Positions 10,446 to 17,352 of a stretch of DNA of 64,000 nucleotides are shown here, piece after piece. The DNA lies in NCBI GenBank assembly GCA_016278725.1, contig JADQBG010000003.1, forward strand, positions 1 through 64,000, in the 5' to 3' direction. The DNA is from Actinomycetota bacterium. GTDB taxonomy: Bacteria; Actinomycetota; Thermoleophilia; RBG-16-64-13. A model generated the notes under the pieces. It saw only the letters and a program-made list of their open reading frames with translations. It did not search any database and was not told the DNA's origin. How positions within the stretch are numbered: the first letter of the stretch is position 1; every line of letters starts with the position of its first letter. Position numbers and translations under genes: made by a program.

Positions 10446-11051
10446 ATAGATACTCTGCGGGATTTCTTTGGGTTTCGCCTTCGTCGAGCCTTCGAGCCCC
10501 TGATCCTAGGCCTTCAGAAACTCAACATCACCCCCAATCAGATCACGGTGACCGGAGCGCTGCTCAACCTGGCGGCGGCTGCGCTGGTCGTCGGCGACCG
10601 CTTGGTGCTGGCCGGGGTGGTCTTCGTGGTGGGCAGCCTGCTGGACATGCTCGATGGCACCCTGGCTCGGTTGGCCCAGAAAGTATCGCCGTTCGGGGCT
10701 TTCCTCGACTCGACACTGGACCGGGCTTCGGAGGGGATCGTCCTGGCGGCTGTTGCCTACCGCTTGGCGGAGCAGGGCCGCGCGGTGGACGCCGCCCTGG
10801 TGGTGGTGGCACTGCTAGGTTCGCTTCTGGTGAGTTACACTCGTGCACGCGCCGAGGCGCTGGGACTCGAGTGTAAGGTAGGCTTTATGAGCCGCCCGGA
10901 GAGGGTCGTGCTTCTCGCGGTCGGCTTGTTCTTCGACCTCTTGCCCTACGTGGTCTACCTGCTCGTGGTGCTCACGACGGTGACTGTGGGGCAGAGAGTA
11001 GCGCATACGTACCGGCAACTCAGACCCGCCGAAGACGCGGCGGGAGAGTAA
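10446..11051 (+). CDS. CDP-alcohol phosphatidyltransferase, probably phosphatidylinositol(-phosphate) synthase
   Basis: The family motif D-G-x2-A-R-x8-G-x3-D-x3-D is complete, from DGTLARL to FLDSTLD, within a protein of about six membrane segments. The gene directly precedes ino1, so the alcohol acceptor is probably inositol 1-phosphate, giving phosphatidylinositol phosphate as in other Actinomycetota. The conserved N-terminus ([20 protein letters not shown]) extends well upstream of the first ATG/GTG/TTG (GTG 10548). Between the in-frame stop at 10392 and that GTG there is no standard start, yet GGAGG at 10436-10440 sits 5 bases before an ATA codon. I take ATA 10446 as start, with CTG 10455 as the alternative. 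Confidence 0.83.
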
Positions 11052-11077: not shown

Positions 11078-12289
11078 GTGAGTGGAAAGGTGAGGGTCGC
11101 GATCATCGGTGTGGGCAACTGCGCCTCTTCGTTGGTCCAGGGAGTGGAGTTCTACAAGAACGCGGCCGACGATGAATTCGTGCCCGGACTTATGCACGTG
11201 AATCTCGGGGGCTATCACATCTCCGATATCGAGTTCTCCGCGGCCTTCGACGTGGATCGGGAAAAGGTCGGCAAGGACCTCTCCCAGGCGATATTCAGCG
11301 GCATGAACAACACGGTGAAGTTCGCCGACGTCCCCAAGATGGGCGTCAAGGTGCACCGGGGAATGACGCACGACGGTCTGGGCAAGTACCTCTCTGAGGT
11401 GATCACCAAAGCCCCTGGCCCCACGGATGACGTGGCCGGGATCTTGCGCGAAACCAAGACCGACGTGGTGATCAACTATCTGCCCGTGGGCAGCGAGGCG
11501 GCCACCAAGTGGTATGTGGAGCAGATCCTCGACGCGGGTTGTGCCTTGGTCAACTGCATTCCCGTGTTCATCGGGCGCGAGGAGTACTGGCAGCAGCGCT
11601 TCGAGGAGAAGGGCCTCCCGGTCATCGGCGACGACATCAAGTCGCAGGTGGGAGCCACGATCGTCCACCGGGTGCTCACCCGCCTGATGCGCGAGCGCGG
11701 CGTGCGGCTCGAGCGGACCAGCCAGCTGAACGTTGGCGGCAACACCGACTTCCTGAACATGCTGGAGCGCGAACGGCTGGAGAGCAAGAAGATCTCCAAG
11801 ACCAACGCGGTCACCTCTCAGTTGGACTACGATCTGGGTGCCAAGAACGTCCACATCGGCCCTTCGGACTACGTCGAGTGGCTGGACGACCGTAAGTGGG
11901 CCTACATCCGCATGGAAGGCCGCACTTTTGGCGACGTGCCCCTCAACGTGGAACTCAAGCTGGAAGTGGTGGACTCCCCGAACTCGGCCGGCATCGTCAT
12001 CGACGCCGTTCGCTGCGCCAAACTGGCGCTCGACCGCGGCGAGTCGGGGGTGCTCTACGGCCCCTCCGCCTACTTCAAGAAGTCGCCGCCCATTCAGGTG
12101 CACGACGACATCGCCCGAGAGATGACCGAGGCCTTCATCCGCGGCGAAGCCCTTCCGGGATATCCTTACGTTTCGGGGAAGGGCGGGGATTCCGCCGGGT
12201 CGGCGGCGCCGAGCGAGGCCCCGATCGCGGCCGAGGAGCGGGCCCATCCGAACGGGGCCGGCGTCGCGGCCGGCGAGCACGAAGACTAG
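11078..12289 (+). CDS. ino1: Inositol-3-phosphate synthase
   Basis: Converts glucose 6-phosphate to 1D-myo-inositol 3-phosphate in an NAD-dependent isomerisation. The 403-residue protein has the N-terminal Rossmann motif [18 protein letters not shown], the conserved catalytic region INCIPVFI-type segment ([12 protein letters not shown]), [15 protein letters not shown], and [12 protein letters not shown]. It is of the short actinobacterial/archaeal type. GTG 11078 has TAGGAGG 6 bases upstream. It lies 26 bp after the CDP-alcohol phosphotransferase, which would use its product, and upstream of a glycosyltransferase-PHP fusion. The last ~35 residues are Ala/Glu/Gly-rich and variable. Confidence 0.93.
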
Positions 12290-12338: not shown

Positions 12339-14378
12339 ATGACGCGGAAGCAGTATAGGATCGCGCTGGTTACGCCCCTTGCCTGGAACGTTCCCAGCGC
12401 GATCAACTTTCACGTGGCCGAGCTGGCGCGGGAGCTTCTGCGGCTGGGGCATCGCCCGACGGTCATCGTTTCCTCCGACGATCCCGACGAGCTGCGGCGG
12501 ATGCGGGCCCTCTGCCGGCGCCGCTGCCGGGCCGCGCTGAAGCTTCTCCCCGAGTGGATCGCTTCCGCCGACCGGCCGTCGGAGATGGAGGGGACGCCGC
12601 CCGGACCCATTCCGGACCCCCTGCTCCTGCCGACGCCGCGCACCGGGCCCATCGAGCCCGGCGAGGGCATTCCCGTACTGCCCTTGGGGCGCAGTTTTCA
12701 TCTGCGCATCAACGGCTCGGTGGCCAACGTGGGCCTGCCGGTGGATCTGCGCTCCCGCCTCGAGCGCGTGCTGATAGGCGCTGGGTTTGACCTGGTGCAC
12801 GTCCACGAGCCGGTCGCTCCCTCCCTTAGCTTCACCGCCGTCCGCGAGTCGCGCAGCCCGGTGATCGCGACTTTTCACATGTCGCCCGTGGGCATGGCCG
12901 GGCTGGAACTGGAGCGCGGACTGCTCGAACGTTTCTACCGGCGTCTGGACGCCCGGATCGTGACCTCTCAGGCGGGGGGCCGCGCGCTGGCGGAGCGCTT
13001 TTCGGGGGGGTACGAGGTGATCCCGCCGGGAACCCGTCTCGGGGCCATAGAGGCGGCCCGCCCGGCTCCGGCGGAGGAGGGCAGCCTGCTCTACGTCTAC
13101 CGAGGCGATGATCATCGGGGCCTCAGGGCTTTTCTTCGGGCGATTGCGGACGAACGGCCCCCCCGGCTAGAACGGCTGGTGGTGGCGGTGCATCGTCCAT
13201 CGGCCCTGGAGTGGCCGCCGCGTTCGGCGCCCCGGCGGCTTGCCGTGCCCGTGACCTGGCACGAGTTCGAAGACATGACCGCGTTGGAGCCGCTCTACCG
13301 GCAGGCAGCGGCGGTTGTCCTGCCCTATCTTGGCGGGGAGTGGCTGCAGCAGACCGGTCTGGAAGCGATCGCGACGGGGTGCCCGGTCGCCGCCCCCGAT
13401 TTCCCGCTTTCCGCCGAGATCCTGGAAGAAGCTCGGGGACGCCTTTTCAGCCCTCGCAGCGAGCGGAGTCTCGCCCGGGCCCTGGAAGCGCTGCTCGGGC
13501 CCGAGTCCGCGGAGGGCGAGGCCGCTTCGGCGGGGCCGAAGCTCGGCGCTCCGTACGGCGCACATTCGCTCGAGACCGTTACTCGCCGAACCCTCGAGCT
13601 CTACGAGAAGGCGCTTCACCGGGCCAAGGAGGAGGACGAGGGCCGCGCTTATCCCATCAAGACGGTCAAGTTCAGCCGAGCCGGAGTGCGCGACGACGGT
13701 CTGATCTATGCCGACCTGCACATTCACACCAACCATTCCAAGGACTCCACCAGTTCGGTTGCCGAGGTTCTCGAGGCGGCGTTCGAAGTGGGCCTCGGGG
13801 CTGTGGCCATCGCCGACCACGACACCATCTCCGGGGGACTCGAGGCCCGCGAGTTGGCTGGGGAGGATCTCGACGTCATCGTCGCCTCGGAGATCAAGAC
13901 CGCGGTCGGGGAGGTAATCGGCCTGTTCCTCGAGGAAGAGGTGCCCGGCGGACTCTCCTTCGAGGAGACGCTGGGCCTGATCAAGGAGCAGGGGGGCCTG
14001 GTCTACATTCCCCATCCCTTCGACGGACTCCGTTCCACGCCGTCTTATGAATCCATGGTCGACAACCTCTACCGGATAGACATCGTCGAGACCTACAACG
14101 CGCGGGTGGCGCTCTCCTCGTTCAATCTGAACGCCGAACGTTTCGCCAGCAAGTACAATCTGGTGGCCGGGGCCGGCAGCGACGCTCACGTGCTTCCCGG
14201 CATTGGCACCGCGATGCTGAGAATGCGGCCGTTCAAAGGCCCCGAAGAGTTCATGACGGCACTGCGGGAGGCCGACATCGTCACGCACCGCAAGAACCTG
14301 CTCTACCTGCAATCACTGAAGTTTTTGCAGACCACGCTGGACCACGTGCTCCCCAGCGGGGCGGACACCGGACGGTGA
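12339..14378 (+). CDS. GT4-like glycosyltransferase fused to a PHP phosphoesterase
   Basis: Residues 1-~430 form a GT-B glycosyltransferase of the GT4 type: IALVTPLAWNVPSAINFHVAELA with the usual N-terminal gap for the donor fold, FDLVHVHEPVAPSLSF, and the late E-x7-E region around QTGLEAIATGCPVAAPDF. Residues ~450-670 are a PHP domain with metal-binding motifs ADLHIHTNHSKDS, IADHDT, IPHPFDG and GSDAHV. PHP proteins act as phosphatases or nucleases. Position after ino1 suggests a role in making or trimming phosphoinositol glycolipids, which is inference. ATG 12339 has GGTGAGG just before it. Confidence 0.85.
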   Translation: MTRKQYRIALVTPLAWNVPSAINFHVAELARELLRLGHRPTVIVSSDDPDELRRMRALCRRRCRAALKLLPEWIASADRPSEMEGTPPGPIPDPLLLPTPRTGPIEPGEGIPVLPLGRSFHLRINGSVANVGLPVDLRSRLERVLIGAGFDLVHVHEPVAPSLSFTAVRESRSPVIATFHMSPVGMAGLELERGLLERFYRRLDARIVTSQAGGRALAERFSGGYEVIPPGTRLGAIEAARPAPAEEGSLLYVYRGDDHRGLRAFLRAIADERPPRLERLVVAVHRPSALEWPPRSAPRRLAVPVTWHEFEDMTALEPLYRQAAAVVLPYLGGEWLQQTGLEAIATGCPVAAPDFPLSAEILEEARGRLFSPRSERSLARALEALLGPESAEGEAASAGPKLGAPYGAHSLETVTRRTLELYEKALHRAKEEDEGRAYPIKTVKFSRAGVRDDGLIYADLHIHTNHSKDSTSSVAEVLEAAFEVGLGAVAIADHDTISGGLEARELAGEDLDVIVASEIKTAVGEVIGLFLEEEVPGGLSFEETLGLIKEQGGLVYIPHPFDGLRSTPSYESMVDNLYRIDIVETYNARVALSSFNLNAERFASKYNLVAGAGSDAHVLPGIGTAMLRMRPFKGPEEFMTALREADIVTHRKNLLYLQSLKFLQTTLDHVLPSGADTGR

Positions 14379-14475: not shown

Positions 14476-15117
14476 ATGACCGGCAGACCCGGCGAACAGC
14501 GCAAGCAGGCGCCCGCCCCCGCCCCCTCCGATCTTCGCAGCAGACTGGAAGAGCGGGCGATCGCGGAGAGCAACGAACTCAACCGCCGCATCGTGCACTG
14601 CCGCTCCTGCCGCCGCAGCGAGTACCTGCCCACCGTGGGCTCCGGGCATCCGCTGGCGGACATCGTCATGATCAAGTACCGCCCCCGCTACCTCGAGGTC
14701 AGCGAGGGAGTCTCCTTCTTCGGCCGGACGGGAAGCGCCGTGCTCAAGAGTGTCGAACGGCTGGGGATCGACCCCCTGCTCCTCTATGGCACAAACGTGA
14801 TCAAATGCGGCGGGTTGGAGGACGTGGAGGGCGAGCACGAGTGCGCCACGTTCCTGCTCGAGGAACTGCGCATCCTGCAGCCCAAGATGATAGTGGTCAT
14901 GGGGCGTCCGGTGCTCGACGTTCTGAACGCCCACCGGGTGGCCGGCACCCGGGAGTTGAGCTGGGAACCGGGCAAACTTCAGGAGTACAGCCCCTTCTGT
15001 CAGGCGCTGGTCACTCCCGACGTGGACACTTCTCTCGACGATGCGGACGCAAAGGCAGAGTTCTGGAAGGCCTTCCGCGTGCTGGGCGACTGGTACCGGG
15101 ACCAGCCTCCATACTGA
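14476..15117 (+). CDS. Family 4 uracil-DNA glycosylase-like protein with a degenerate active site
   Basis: The protein keeps the family 4/5 UDG layout: C42-x2-C45 (IVHCRSCRRSEYLP), SFFGRTGSAVLKSVERLGID, YGTNVIKCGG and a later Cys in EHECATFLLEELRILQPK, giving four Cys for a [4Fe-4S] cluster. The catalytic motif that normally reads GEAPGxxED is replaced by MIKYRPRYLE, so uracil excision is doubtful. It may bind DNA or another substrate through the fold. GGAAGAG lies upstream of ATG 14476. It is followed closely by the presenilin-like gene. Confidence 0.7.
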   Translation: MTGRPGEQRKQAPAPAPSDLRSRLEERAIAESNELNRRIVHCRSCRRSEYLPTVGSGHPLADIVMIKYRPRYLEVSEGVSFFGRTGSAVLKSVERLGIDPLLLYGTNVIKCGGLEDVEGEHECATFLLEELRILQPKMIVVMGRPVLDVLNAHRVAGTRELSWEPGKLQEYSPFCQALVTPDVDTSLDDADAKAEFWKAFRVLGDWYRDQPPY

Positions 15118-15155: not shown

Positions 15156-15980
15156 ATGAAGCGGGCAGGAGGCGGGCTGGGATCAGCGCCTGTGATCGCC
15201 GCCGCCGCCCTGGCGCTGGTGGCCGCGTATCCGCTTTCCGCCTGGTTTCCCGAACCCACCGACGCCCGCGTCGCTTCGCTCCTCGGATTCCTTTTGGCGA
15301 TGGTTCCGGCGGCGCTGTTCATGGCCGGTATCTTGCGGGCCCCGCTCCCGCCCCGCCTCCTGGGCCTGATCGTGGTCCTTGGTCTGGCGTTGGGATTCCT
15401 GGCGGCTTACTTGGAGATGCCTGCCCTTGCCGCCCCCTTCAAGATCGCGGCGGCGGCGGCTGCCGGCCGCCTCTTGGGCGTCCACGTGCCCGGCCCCCGC
15501 TGGCTCGCCTTCATGGCCGGACTTGTGCTGCTGATCGACGCCTGGAGTGTGTTCTTCGGCCCGACCAAAGCCATCGTCGAAGCCACCCCCTCCCTGCTGG
15601 AATACCTGCTGGTGGTTTTTCCCTCGGCCGGCGGAAGTGTGGGGGCGGCGCTCGGGGTCACCGATTTCGTGTTTCTGGCTTTCTTCACCGTGGGCTCGGC
15701 GATTACCGGTCTTCGCCACCGCTTGGGCTTCACTTTGATGGCCGCGAGCTTCCCCGTGTCATTGGGACTGGCCATGGGACTCGAGCGGGGCCTTCCCGCC
15801 CTGCCTCTACTCGGCCTCGCCTTCCTGCTGGCAAACGCGGATCTTCTGGCTTCGCGCGGCGGCACCCGGCGGAAGCCGCCCTCGGCGCCCACGCCGGCCA
15901 CAGGGCCCACCGCGCCTACAGGGCCCATCCCGCCTGCGGGGTCCACGACGCCCGCGGTGCCAACGGACTCTAAGAAGTAG
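15156..15980 (+). CDS. Presenilin/SPP-like (A22) intramembrane aspartyl protease homologue, tentative
   Basis: A 274-residue polytopic membrane protein with about eight hydrophobic segments and a Pro/Thr/Gly repeat tail (TGPTAPTGPIPPAG). Two segments resemble archaeal presenilin-like proteases. LLIDAWSVFFGPTKAI resembles the YDxxSVxxTKHM segment, with D128. LGVTDFVFLAFF resembles the GxGD segment, with D170. Neither motif is perfect: I replaces Y, and GVTD replaces GLGD. A conserved LLVVFP sits between them. If active, it would cut membrane proteins within the bilayer. The start is uncertain (GTG 15144 or ATG 15156). Its 3' end overlaps the end of rlmD by 11 bp. Confidence 0.5.
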   Translation: MKRAGGGLGSAPVIAAAALALVAAYPLSAWFPEPTDARVASLLGFLLAMVPAALFMAGILRAPLPPRLLGLIVVLGLALGFLAAYLEMPALAAPFKIAAAAAAGRLLGVHVPGPRWLAFMAGLVLLIDAWSVFFGPTKAIVEATPSLLEYLLVVFPSAGGSVGAALGVTDFVFLAFFTVGSAITGLRHRLGFTLMAASFPVSLGLAMGLERGLPALPLLGLAFLLANADLLASRGGTRRKPPSAPTPATGPTAPTGPIPPAGSTTPAVPTDSKK

Positions 15981-17352
15981 GCTCCAACAGGCCCACCGCC
16001 TCGATGTGCGGCGTGTGGGGAAACATGTCCACCGGGGTGACTCGAACCAACCGGTAGCCGTGCTCGGCGAAGTCCTTGAGATTGTCGGCCATCGTCGCGG
16101 GATTGCAGGATACGTAGACGATCCGGGCCGGGCGCGCCGCCGCGGCCCTCATGATGACCTTCTTGGCGAGTCCCCCACGGGGCGGGTCGAGCACCACGAC
16201 GTCCGGTTTTTCCAGTCCGGGCGGGAGGGCGGCGCGGCCCTCCAAGACCTCTTTCAGCACCACGCGCGCGTTGCCCTCGAGAAAGGTGGCGTTGCCGATG
16301 CCGTTGAGGCGGGCGTTGTCCCGGGCGTCTTCGACCGCGGGGCCGACCACCTCGATGCCGAGCACGGCGCGGGCCCGGCGGGCGAGATAGAGGGCGATGG
16401 AGCCGATCCCCGAGTAGAGATCCCACACCACCTCATGGCCGGTGAGACCGGCTTCCTCGGCCGCCCGGGCGTAGAGGGTTTCGGCCATCTCGGTGTTCGT
16501 CTGGAAGAAGGCGTCGATCGATACCTTGAAGCGCAGCCCGCCCAACTCCTCGAAAAGAAAGGAGCGGCCGTGGAGCACCCGGTGGGGAAGGGCGGTTGCC
16601 ACCTCGGCCTGACCGGCGTTGGAGGCGTGGAGGATGCCGACCATTTTCGGAAACTCGGGCAGGAGGGCTTCCGGCAGACCCGGGGGCAGCTCGCCGGGAG
16701 CGGTCGCCAGGCTGATCAGCAACTCGTTCGTGGCCCGCCCCTCCCGGACGGTCAGATGGCGGAAGTACCCGGTCTGGGAGCGGGGATCCCAGCCCGGACG
16801 CCCGGTCTTTCTGATCCATTGCTCGACCCGCGTGCGCACCGTCTCCGCCTCGGGGGAGATCAGGTGACATTCGGTCATCGGGAGCACTTGGTCCCATCTT
16901 CCCGGGGGATGAAAGCCCACCAGCGGTCCCTCGGGCCCCGGGCCGATGGAGAACTCCACCTTGTTGCGGTAGCGCCAGGGTTCCTCCATGCCGATAACGG
17001 GCCGAACCTCGAAGTCGGTCAGTCCGCCCAAGCGCTCGAGCGACTCCCGCACCTGCCTCTCCTTGTACTTCAGCTGCGTCGGATAGGCCAGGCTCTGCCA
17101 GCGGCAGCCGCCGCAGGAGCCGTAGTGGCGGCAAGCCGCGCCTATGCGGTCCGGCGAAGGCCGGAGAATGGATTCCAGGCGCGCCTCGGCATAGCGGCGC
17201 TTCGCTTTGGTGACCACCGCGCGCACCCGGTCGCCGGGGACACCGCCGGCAACGAAAACCACGAGGCCGTCCACGCGGCTTACCCCCTGTCCGCCGAACG
17301 CCAGGTTGTCTATTTCCAGTTCGAGTTGGGTGCCGCGATGCGGGCGTTCCAC
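15970..17352 (-). CDS. rlmD: TrmA/RlmD-type tRNA or 23S rRNA (uracil-5-)-methyltransferase
   Basis: A 460-residue SAM-dependent RNA methyltransferase. An N-terminal TRAM domain (residues ~8-62) is followed by a Cys cluster for [4Fe-4S] (CRHYGSCGGCRWQSL). The C-terminal Rossmann domain has DLYSGIGSIALYLARRA for SAM binding, VLDPPRGG, and VSCNPATMADNL with the catalytic Cys. RlmD methylates U1939 of E. coli 23S rRNA; the exact target here could also be a paralogue's site, so the symbol is a family-level name. GTG 17352 has GAGGAG upstream. It runs divergently from the EamA transporter. Confidence 0.87.
   Translation of the reverse strand: MERPHRGTQLELEIDNLAFGGQGVSRVDGLVVFVAGGVPGDRVRAVVTKAKRRYAEARLESILRPSPDRIGAACRHYGSCGGCRWQSLAYPTQLKYKERQVRESLERLGGLTDFEVRPVIGMEEPWRYRNKVEFSIGPGPEGPLVGFHPPGRWDQVLPMTECHLISPEAETVRTRVEQWIRKTGRPGWDPRSQTGYFRHLTVREGRATNELLISLATAPGELPPGLPEALLPEFPKMVGILHASNAGQAEVATALPHRVLHGRSFLFEELGGLRFKVSIDAFFQTNTEMAETLYARAAEEAGLTGHEVVWDLYSGIGSIALYLARRARAVLGIEVVGPAVEDARDNARLNGIGNATFLEGNARVVLKEVLEGRAALPPGLEKPDVVVLDPPRGGLAKKVIMRAAAARPARIVYVSCNPATMADNLKDFAEHGYRLVRVTPVDMFPHTPHIEAVGLLEPTS

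Follow-up and report, generated by a model that had tools for sequence, protein, structure and literature searches.

Proteases of the presenilin type have a central role in both Notch signalling and Alzheimer's disease. In presenilin-1 (PS1) the two catalytic aspartates, D257 and D385, lie about 128 residues apart, and in signal peptide peptidase (SPP) the PAL motif has the context QPALLY. Such proteases were reportedly found by Raut et al. 2021 in archaea and in bacteria of the Candidate Phyla Radiation, so that their occurrence in bacteria may not be new as such. Archaeal presenilin-type enzymes have been described (PMC2947513, PMC9263693), as have Asgard homologues (PMC7997004). The best-studied prokaryotic model, archaeal MCMJR1/PSH, has its aspartates (D162 and D220) 58 residues apart and carries YD and GxGD signatures without an obvious PAL motif (PMC2947513). 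The literature we searched contained no description of an actinobacterial family of this kind, of presenilin-type motifs that include PAL in such a family, or of its pairing with a gene resembling uracil-DNA glycosylases (UDG).

A membrane protein family related to presenilins

We analysed a stretch of 64,000 nucleotides of actinobacterial DNA (the window), for which a sequence-only reading had proposed a presenilin-like membrane protease homologue. The open reading frame and the contexts of the two putative catalytic residues of its product, D128 (LLIDAWSVFFGPTKAI) and D170 (LGVTDFVFLAFF), are as that reading gave them, with the ATG at 15156 and the stop codon at 15978-15980 (Table 1). Comparison with the closest relative, from a congener, gave a dN/dS of about 0.22, with codon changes mostly at third positions; the frame is therefore a real gene, and it is under purifying selection. 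The host genome has a single copy. Of 61 related genomes, 32 have a relative, always as a single copy, and a sample of 396 genomes across the phylum yielded 29 with one (18 from the host class and 11 from a second family, f19); the search covered the host's phylum only, other phyla being outside its scope. The family, undescribed so far, consists of single-copy membrane proteins from the host class and f19. A TauE/SafE-like match (L061), the second in its genome, was judged spurious and set aside. In another genome (G030, L020:1483-3024) the frame extends for about 270 more codons whose product resembles a soluble methyltransferase-like domain, a possible fusion or a missing stop codon.

Table 1. 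Features of the locus, in positions of the window; residue numbers are those of the protease homologue.
Feature	Position	Strand	Basis
CDP-alcohol phosphatidyltransferase-like protein; also adjoins the pair in the distant family	10548..11051	+	Sequence inspection
Inositol-1-phosphate synthase-like protein	11078..12289	+	Sequence inspection
Glycosyltransferase 4/PHP domain fusion protein	12339..14378	+	Domain scan, context
Catalytically degenerate family-4 UDG-like protein, 213 aa	14476..15117	+	PF03167, 4zbx, AlphaFold2/Foldseek, adjacency
Invariant G-S-G-H-P-x-A-D-x(4)-K segment of the UDG-like protein	14638..14676	+	Alignment of relatives
Presenilin-like intramembrane aspartyl protease homologue, 274 aa, C-terminal Pro-rich tail	15156..15980	+	Open reading frame, relatives, profile, AlphaFold2
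Asp-1 motif D128-x-x-S-V-x-x-G-P-T137	15537..15566	+	D128, S131, G135 and P136 in 38/38; hmmsearch alignments in register
Predicted beta hairpin (152-156, 162-167) between the Asp helices, directly before D170	15609..15656	+	AlphaFold2
Asp-2 motif G167-x-[S/P/A/T]-D170-x-x-F173	15654..15674	+	G167, D170 and F173 in 38/38; hmmsearch alignment
PALP motif, residues 214-217	15795..15806	+	P214 36/38, A215 37/38, L216 37/38, P217 38/38
23S rRNA uracil-5-methyltransferase-like protein (RlmCD/RumA type), convergent	15970..17352	-	Inspection

Scans of Pfam and NCBIfam with the single protease sequence gave no matches, and a single-protein scan of genome contigs found only one near relative; since the family databases were silent, profiles were needed to establish homology. 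These were built from alignments of 30 relatives and then of 38, the latter including the distant family f19, with identities down to about 25%. Against all sequences of the PDB, the 30-relative profile had six matches at E<=10, all of them presenilins (best 8.8e-6). The 38-relative profile had nine in the whole PDB, eight of which were presenilins (PS2 at 4.7e-8, PS1 at 1.4e-6) and one spurious (0.25). It aligned both the TM6-Asp block and the TM7-Asp-to-PAL block with presenilin in order, the former matching 'YDLVAVL..GP' and the latter 'LGLGDFIF...PALPIS'. A control profile from ten reversed sequences had no matches in the PDB at E<=10, so composition does not explain the result, and the proposed homology to presenilins is supported.

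The Pfam family that had been suggested for a profile check, PF06550, was matched by none of the 38 members at E<=1. A whole-genome scan likewise found no PF06550 protein in 41 related genomes, while the model worked in Haloferax and Methanosarcina controls. The model matched by most members was that of presenilin, PF01080, and this only weakly (6/38, best 0.0011, below the cut-off). A scan of the 41 relatives with PF01080 gave nothing at the curated cut-off; its control was also silent, and the scan is thus uninformative on absence. Pfam A22B (PF04258) matched no member. Judged by these sequence models, the protein appears closer to presenilin than to the PF06550 group, a placement that is supported though weak.

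Putative catalytic motifs and predicted fold

D128 and D170 are invariant in all 30 relatives of the smaller alignment and all 38 of the larger, and form its only invariant acidic columns. S131, G135, P136, G167, F173 and P217 are also present in 38/38, and V132, T137, G159, L186, R187, P214, A215, L216, F223 and N227 are conserved in at least 90% of these relatives. In the hmmsearch alignments the Asp-1 motif falls on the TM6 block of PS1/PS2, 'YDLVAVLCPKGP', and the Asp-2 motif on 'GLGDFIF' of TM7. The PALP motif, which lies before the last TM helix and aligns with the presenilin PAL motif 'PALPIS', is a third presenilin hallmark that the sequence-only reading had overlooked.

That reading had taken D128 and D170 to match the catalytic aspartates of A22 proteases in position, spacing and surroundings, with both motifs deviating. 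On spacing it needs correction, because the two residues, 42 positions apart, stand closer together than the aspartates of known A22 enzymes. The deviations are real throughout the family. Residue 127 is V, A, S, I or L in the 38 relatives, giving [VAISL]D in place of YD; at the second site Gx[SPAT]D replaces GxGD, the first Gly being present in 38/38 and the second in 0/38. Position 169, which holds S, P, A or T, is the equivalent of PS1 G384. On its motifs the protein would not be filed as a strict, standard A22 member, because the YD and GxGD signatures both fail. Some relatives (L015, L019 and L044) carry a motif variant that is two residues longer, 'DAASVFLPQGPT' or 'DAISVFAPQGPT', equal in length to presenilin 'DLVAVLCPKGPL'. 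In a relative from the class (G404, L060) neither aspartate remains, one being replaced by E and the other by S, and PAL has eroded to PAV; it is an apparent pseudoprotease, and erosion of PAL alongside loss of both aspartates is as expected if all three work together. A basic residue, K96 (15441-15443), lies inside predicted TM4 (K in 27/38, R in 9/38); we know of no presenilin counterpart.

AlphaFold2, run with the 30-sequence alignment, gave a model with pLDDT 89.5 and pTM 0.82 and eight predicted TM helices (11-29, 37-61, 66-85, 89-108, 114-134, 168-183, 188-209 and 215-234), compared with nine in presenilin. D128 lies within helix 114-134 and D170 within the neighbouring helix 168-183. 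The predicted hairpin before D170 resembles, as we infer, the beta strands seen in presenilin with bound substrate. In a Foldseek search of the PDB, presenilin-1 and SPPL2a chains filled ranks 1-16 (probability 1.00 for ranks 1-12), and archaeal PSH (4hyg) came only at rank 45. Structure prediction, which had been named as the check that could refute the proposal, returned A22 proteins as top matches, but with low TM-scores (0.24-0.42 in the top 16, at most 0.42) and one helix fewer than in presenilin, and so suggests a presenilin-like fold without establishing it.

The positive-inside rule was used to predict orientation. In the 30-member alignment K and R cluster at both termini and in the 2-3 and 6-7 loops, and few occur in the 3-4 and 7-8 loops. 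The Asp helices are joined by a long, charge-balanced loop. From this distribution we infer that both termini may be cytoplasmic and the D128-D170 loop extracytoplasmic, an orientation like that of SPP and opposite to that of presenilin.

The upstream UDG-like gene and its neighbourhood

The gene upstream had been described as UDG-like with a broken active site, and both parts of this description were confirmed. Its product matches PF03167 (2.1e-7) and the family-4 UDG 4zbx (5.1e-16), and its AlphaFold2 model (pLDDT 90) has the UDG fold (Foldseek E 2.4e-11, TM-score 0.65-0.80 to family-4 UDG/UdgX). UDG motif A (GExPG), with the catalytic acid, is absent from the protein and replaced by K67-Y-R, of which K67 is invariant. 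Other UDG-family genes of the host genome are on contigs C19, C13 and C10.

The UDG-like gene is present in 38/38 class genomes of the 396-genome sample. In the 18 that also carry the protease gene it lies directly upstream of it on the same strand, as judged from coordinates (18/18; 21 loci checked), and the other 20 have it without the protease. In f19, a strongly degenerate UDG-like gene lies directly upstream at 10 of the 11 protease loci, and the remaining locus is at a contig edge. No Fe-S cysteine is left in the f19 UDG-like protein (L048, L050-L058, L079, L081) and its GSGHP motif is gone as well, yet its gene is kept directly upstream of the protease gene. In several genomes the frames of the two genes share 1-4 bases. 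Weaker UDG-like homologues are also present outside the class, in further families of the phylum, and in L104 and L108 they are upstream of dnaK. The constant adjacency suggests that the two proteins form a unit. Being universal in the 38 class genomes, with homologues in other families, the UDG-like protein probably also has a role that goes beyond the protease. Dependence appears one-sided at best, of the protease on the UDG-like gene and not the reverse, because twenty class genomes keep the latter without the former and homologues outside the class are found elsewhere.

Further upstream, the CDP-alcohol phosphatidyltransferase-like, inositol-1-phosphate synthase-like and glycosyltransferase-PHP genes point to inositol phospholipid synthesis, with no functional tie to the protease. 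The position of the fusion of glycosyltransferase 4 and PHP metallohydrolase, beside inositol-1-phosphate synthase, is conserved in about 14 genomes. Downstream, the convergent methyltransferase-like gene overlaps the 3' end of the protease gene by 11 bases (15970-15980); in another family, f6, the same methyltransferase gene is upstream and on the same strand. A complete loss of synteny around the pair in f19 was considered and rejected, as AI-2E-like and CDP-alcohol phosphatidyltransferase-like genes are found there too.

Competing readings and comparison with known systems

We consider it likely that the gene encodes a divergent presenilin-like intramembrane aspartyl protease, with proteolysis inferred, activity untested and the substrate unproven; the family is probably a bacterial branch of the presenilin proteases. 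Lack of Gly at position 169 in every relative could instead mean that catalysis was lost and that a presenilin fold without protease function keeps its Asp pair for an ion-leak path, or to give the UDG-like partner a structural scaffold. The existence of a fully degenerate relative (L060) fits such a loss, and archaeal GxGD proteases reportedly double as ion channels (Kuo et al. 2015, cited in PMC7997004). We think this unlikely, however, since both aspartates, G167, G135-P136 and P217 are absolutely invariant over relatives at about 25% identity, and the sole relative without the aspartates also has the eroded PAL expected for catalytic residues. It is very improbable that the protein is like type IV prepilin peptidases (A24), or is an unrelated polytopic membrane protein with two aspartates by chance. 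Bacterial A24 enzymes do have two membrane aspartates and a GxGD motif, but the matches by PDB profile and by fold are presenilins and not A24, and the A24 family search (PF01478) was silent at the protease locus and matched 0/38 members. Separate A24 genes are elsewhere in the genome, on contigs C24 and C18, and assignment to A24 was rejected.

A further doubt, compatible with the protease reading, concerns the pairing, which may reflect inherited gene order and no functional link. All 38 sampled class genomes have the UDG-like gene, 20 of them without the protease; outside the class it is placed elsewhere, for example before dnaK, and the wider neighbourhood is partly common too (AI-2E-like and CDP-alcohol phosphatidyltransferase-like genes). 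Yet in these genomes the protease was not seen without the UDG-like gene, one contig edge excepted. In f6 the pair stays although most of the wider order (inositol-1-phosphate synthase, glycosyltransferase-PHP) is gone, in f19 the gene remains directly upstream despite loss of the Fe-S cysteines and the invariant motif, and start and stop codons of the pair overlap in several genomes. This leaves mere inheritance of order possible, though not our preferred account. The strongest form of a functional link, an obligate complex in which a dead UDG-fold protein, of a fold that binds nucleic acids or nucleotides, controls cutting by a bacterial presenilin-type protease with the PAL that archaeal PSH lacks, can be put forward only tentatively.

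If the protein is a protease, D128 and D170 would, from their predicted neighbouring TM helices, jointly activate water for the cleavage of single-pass membrane helices. Together, the short hairpin before D170 and the PALP loop may shape the active site and hold an unwound substrate strand, as in gamma-secretase. The enzyme would be made from a two-gene unit with the catalytically degenerate UDG-fold protein, an inferred cytoplasmic partner or regulator, and regulated intramembrane proteolysis might be the task of the pair. Being compact, bearing PALP and apparently needing none of the eukaryotic cofactors, such a bacterial enzyme would be a tractable model; the actinobacterial family would inform the origin of the presenilin branch and would test the need for the second Gly of GxGD, and the conserved pairing with a dead UDG provides a concrete handle on regulation and substrate.

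Compared with family-4 UDG/UdgX, the partner protein shares the fold (TM-score 0.65-0.80), and most class members also keep the four Cys positions of the Fe-S site, whereas GExPG is lost and an invariant GSGHPxAD...K is found instead; UDGs other than this one are encoded on the three contigs named above. The putative protease resembles archaeal PSH/MCMJR1 (PF06550) as a prokaryotic intramembrane protease of predicted presenilin-like fold with a short inter-Asp loop (58 residues in MCMJR1), but matches PF06550 in no member or related genome (41), and reverses the archaeal combination of YD and GxGD without an obvious PAL (PMC2947513). Signal peptide peptidase/SPPL2a (A22B, PF04258) is the second fold family in Foldseek (9k92, E 4.8e-4) and shares the orientation inferred for the active site; in contrast, there is no Pfam A22B match, and the PAL context is PALP, as in presenilin. 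From presenilin-1/-2 (MEROPS A22A, PF01080; the catalytic subunit of gamma-secretase) the protease differs in being bacterial, in its predicted inverted orientation, in having eight and not nine TM helices (the N-terminal one is missing), in an Asp-Asp spacing of 42 against about 128 without the long autocleavage loop, in the absence of Tyr before Asp-1 and replacement of the second Gly of GxGD, and in being paired with a UDG-like gene and not with known relatives of APH-1, PEN-2 or nicastrin. With presenilin, however, it shares D-x-x-[SA]-V-...-GP, G-x-x-D-x-x-F and then PALP, in the same order, and a 65-residue TM7-to-PAL block that aligns at E 4.7e-8 to 2e-4; its predicted fold is also presenilin-like, though at low TM-scores.
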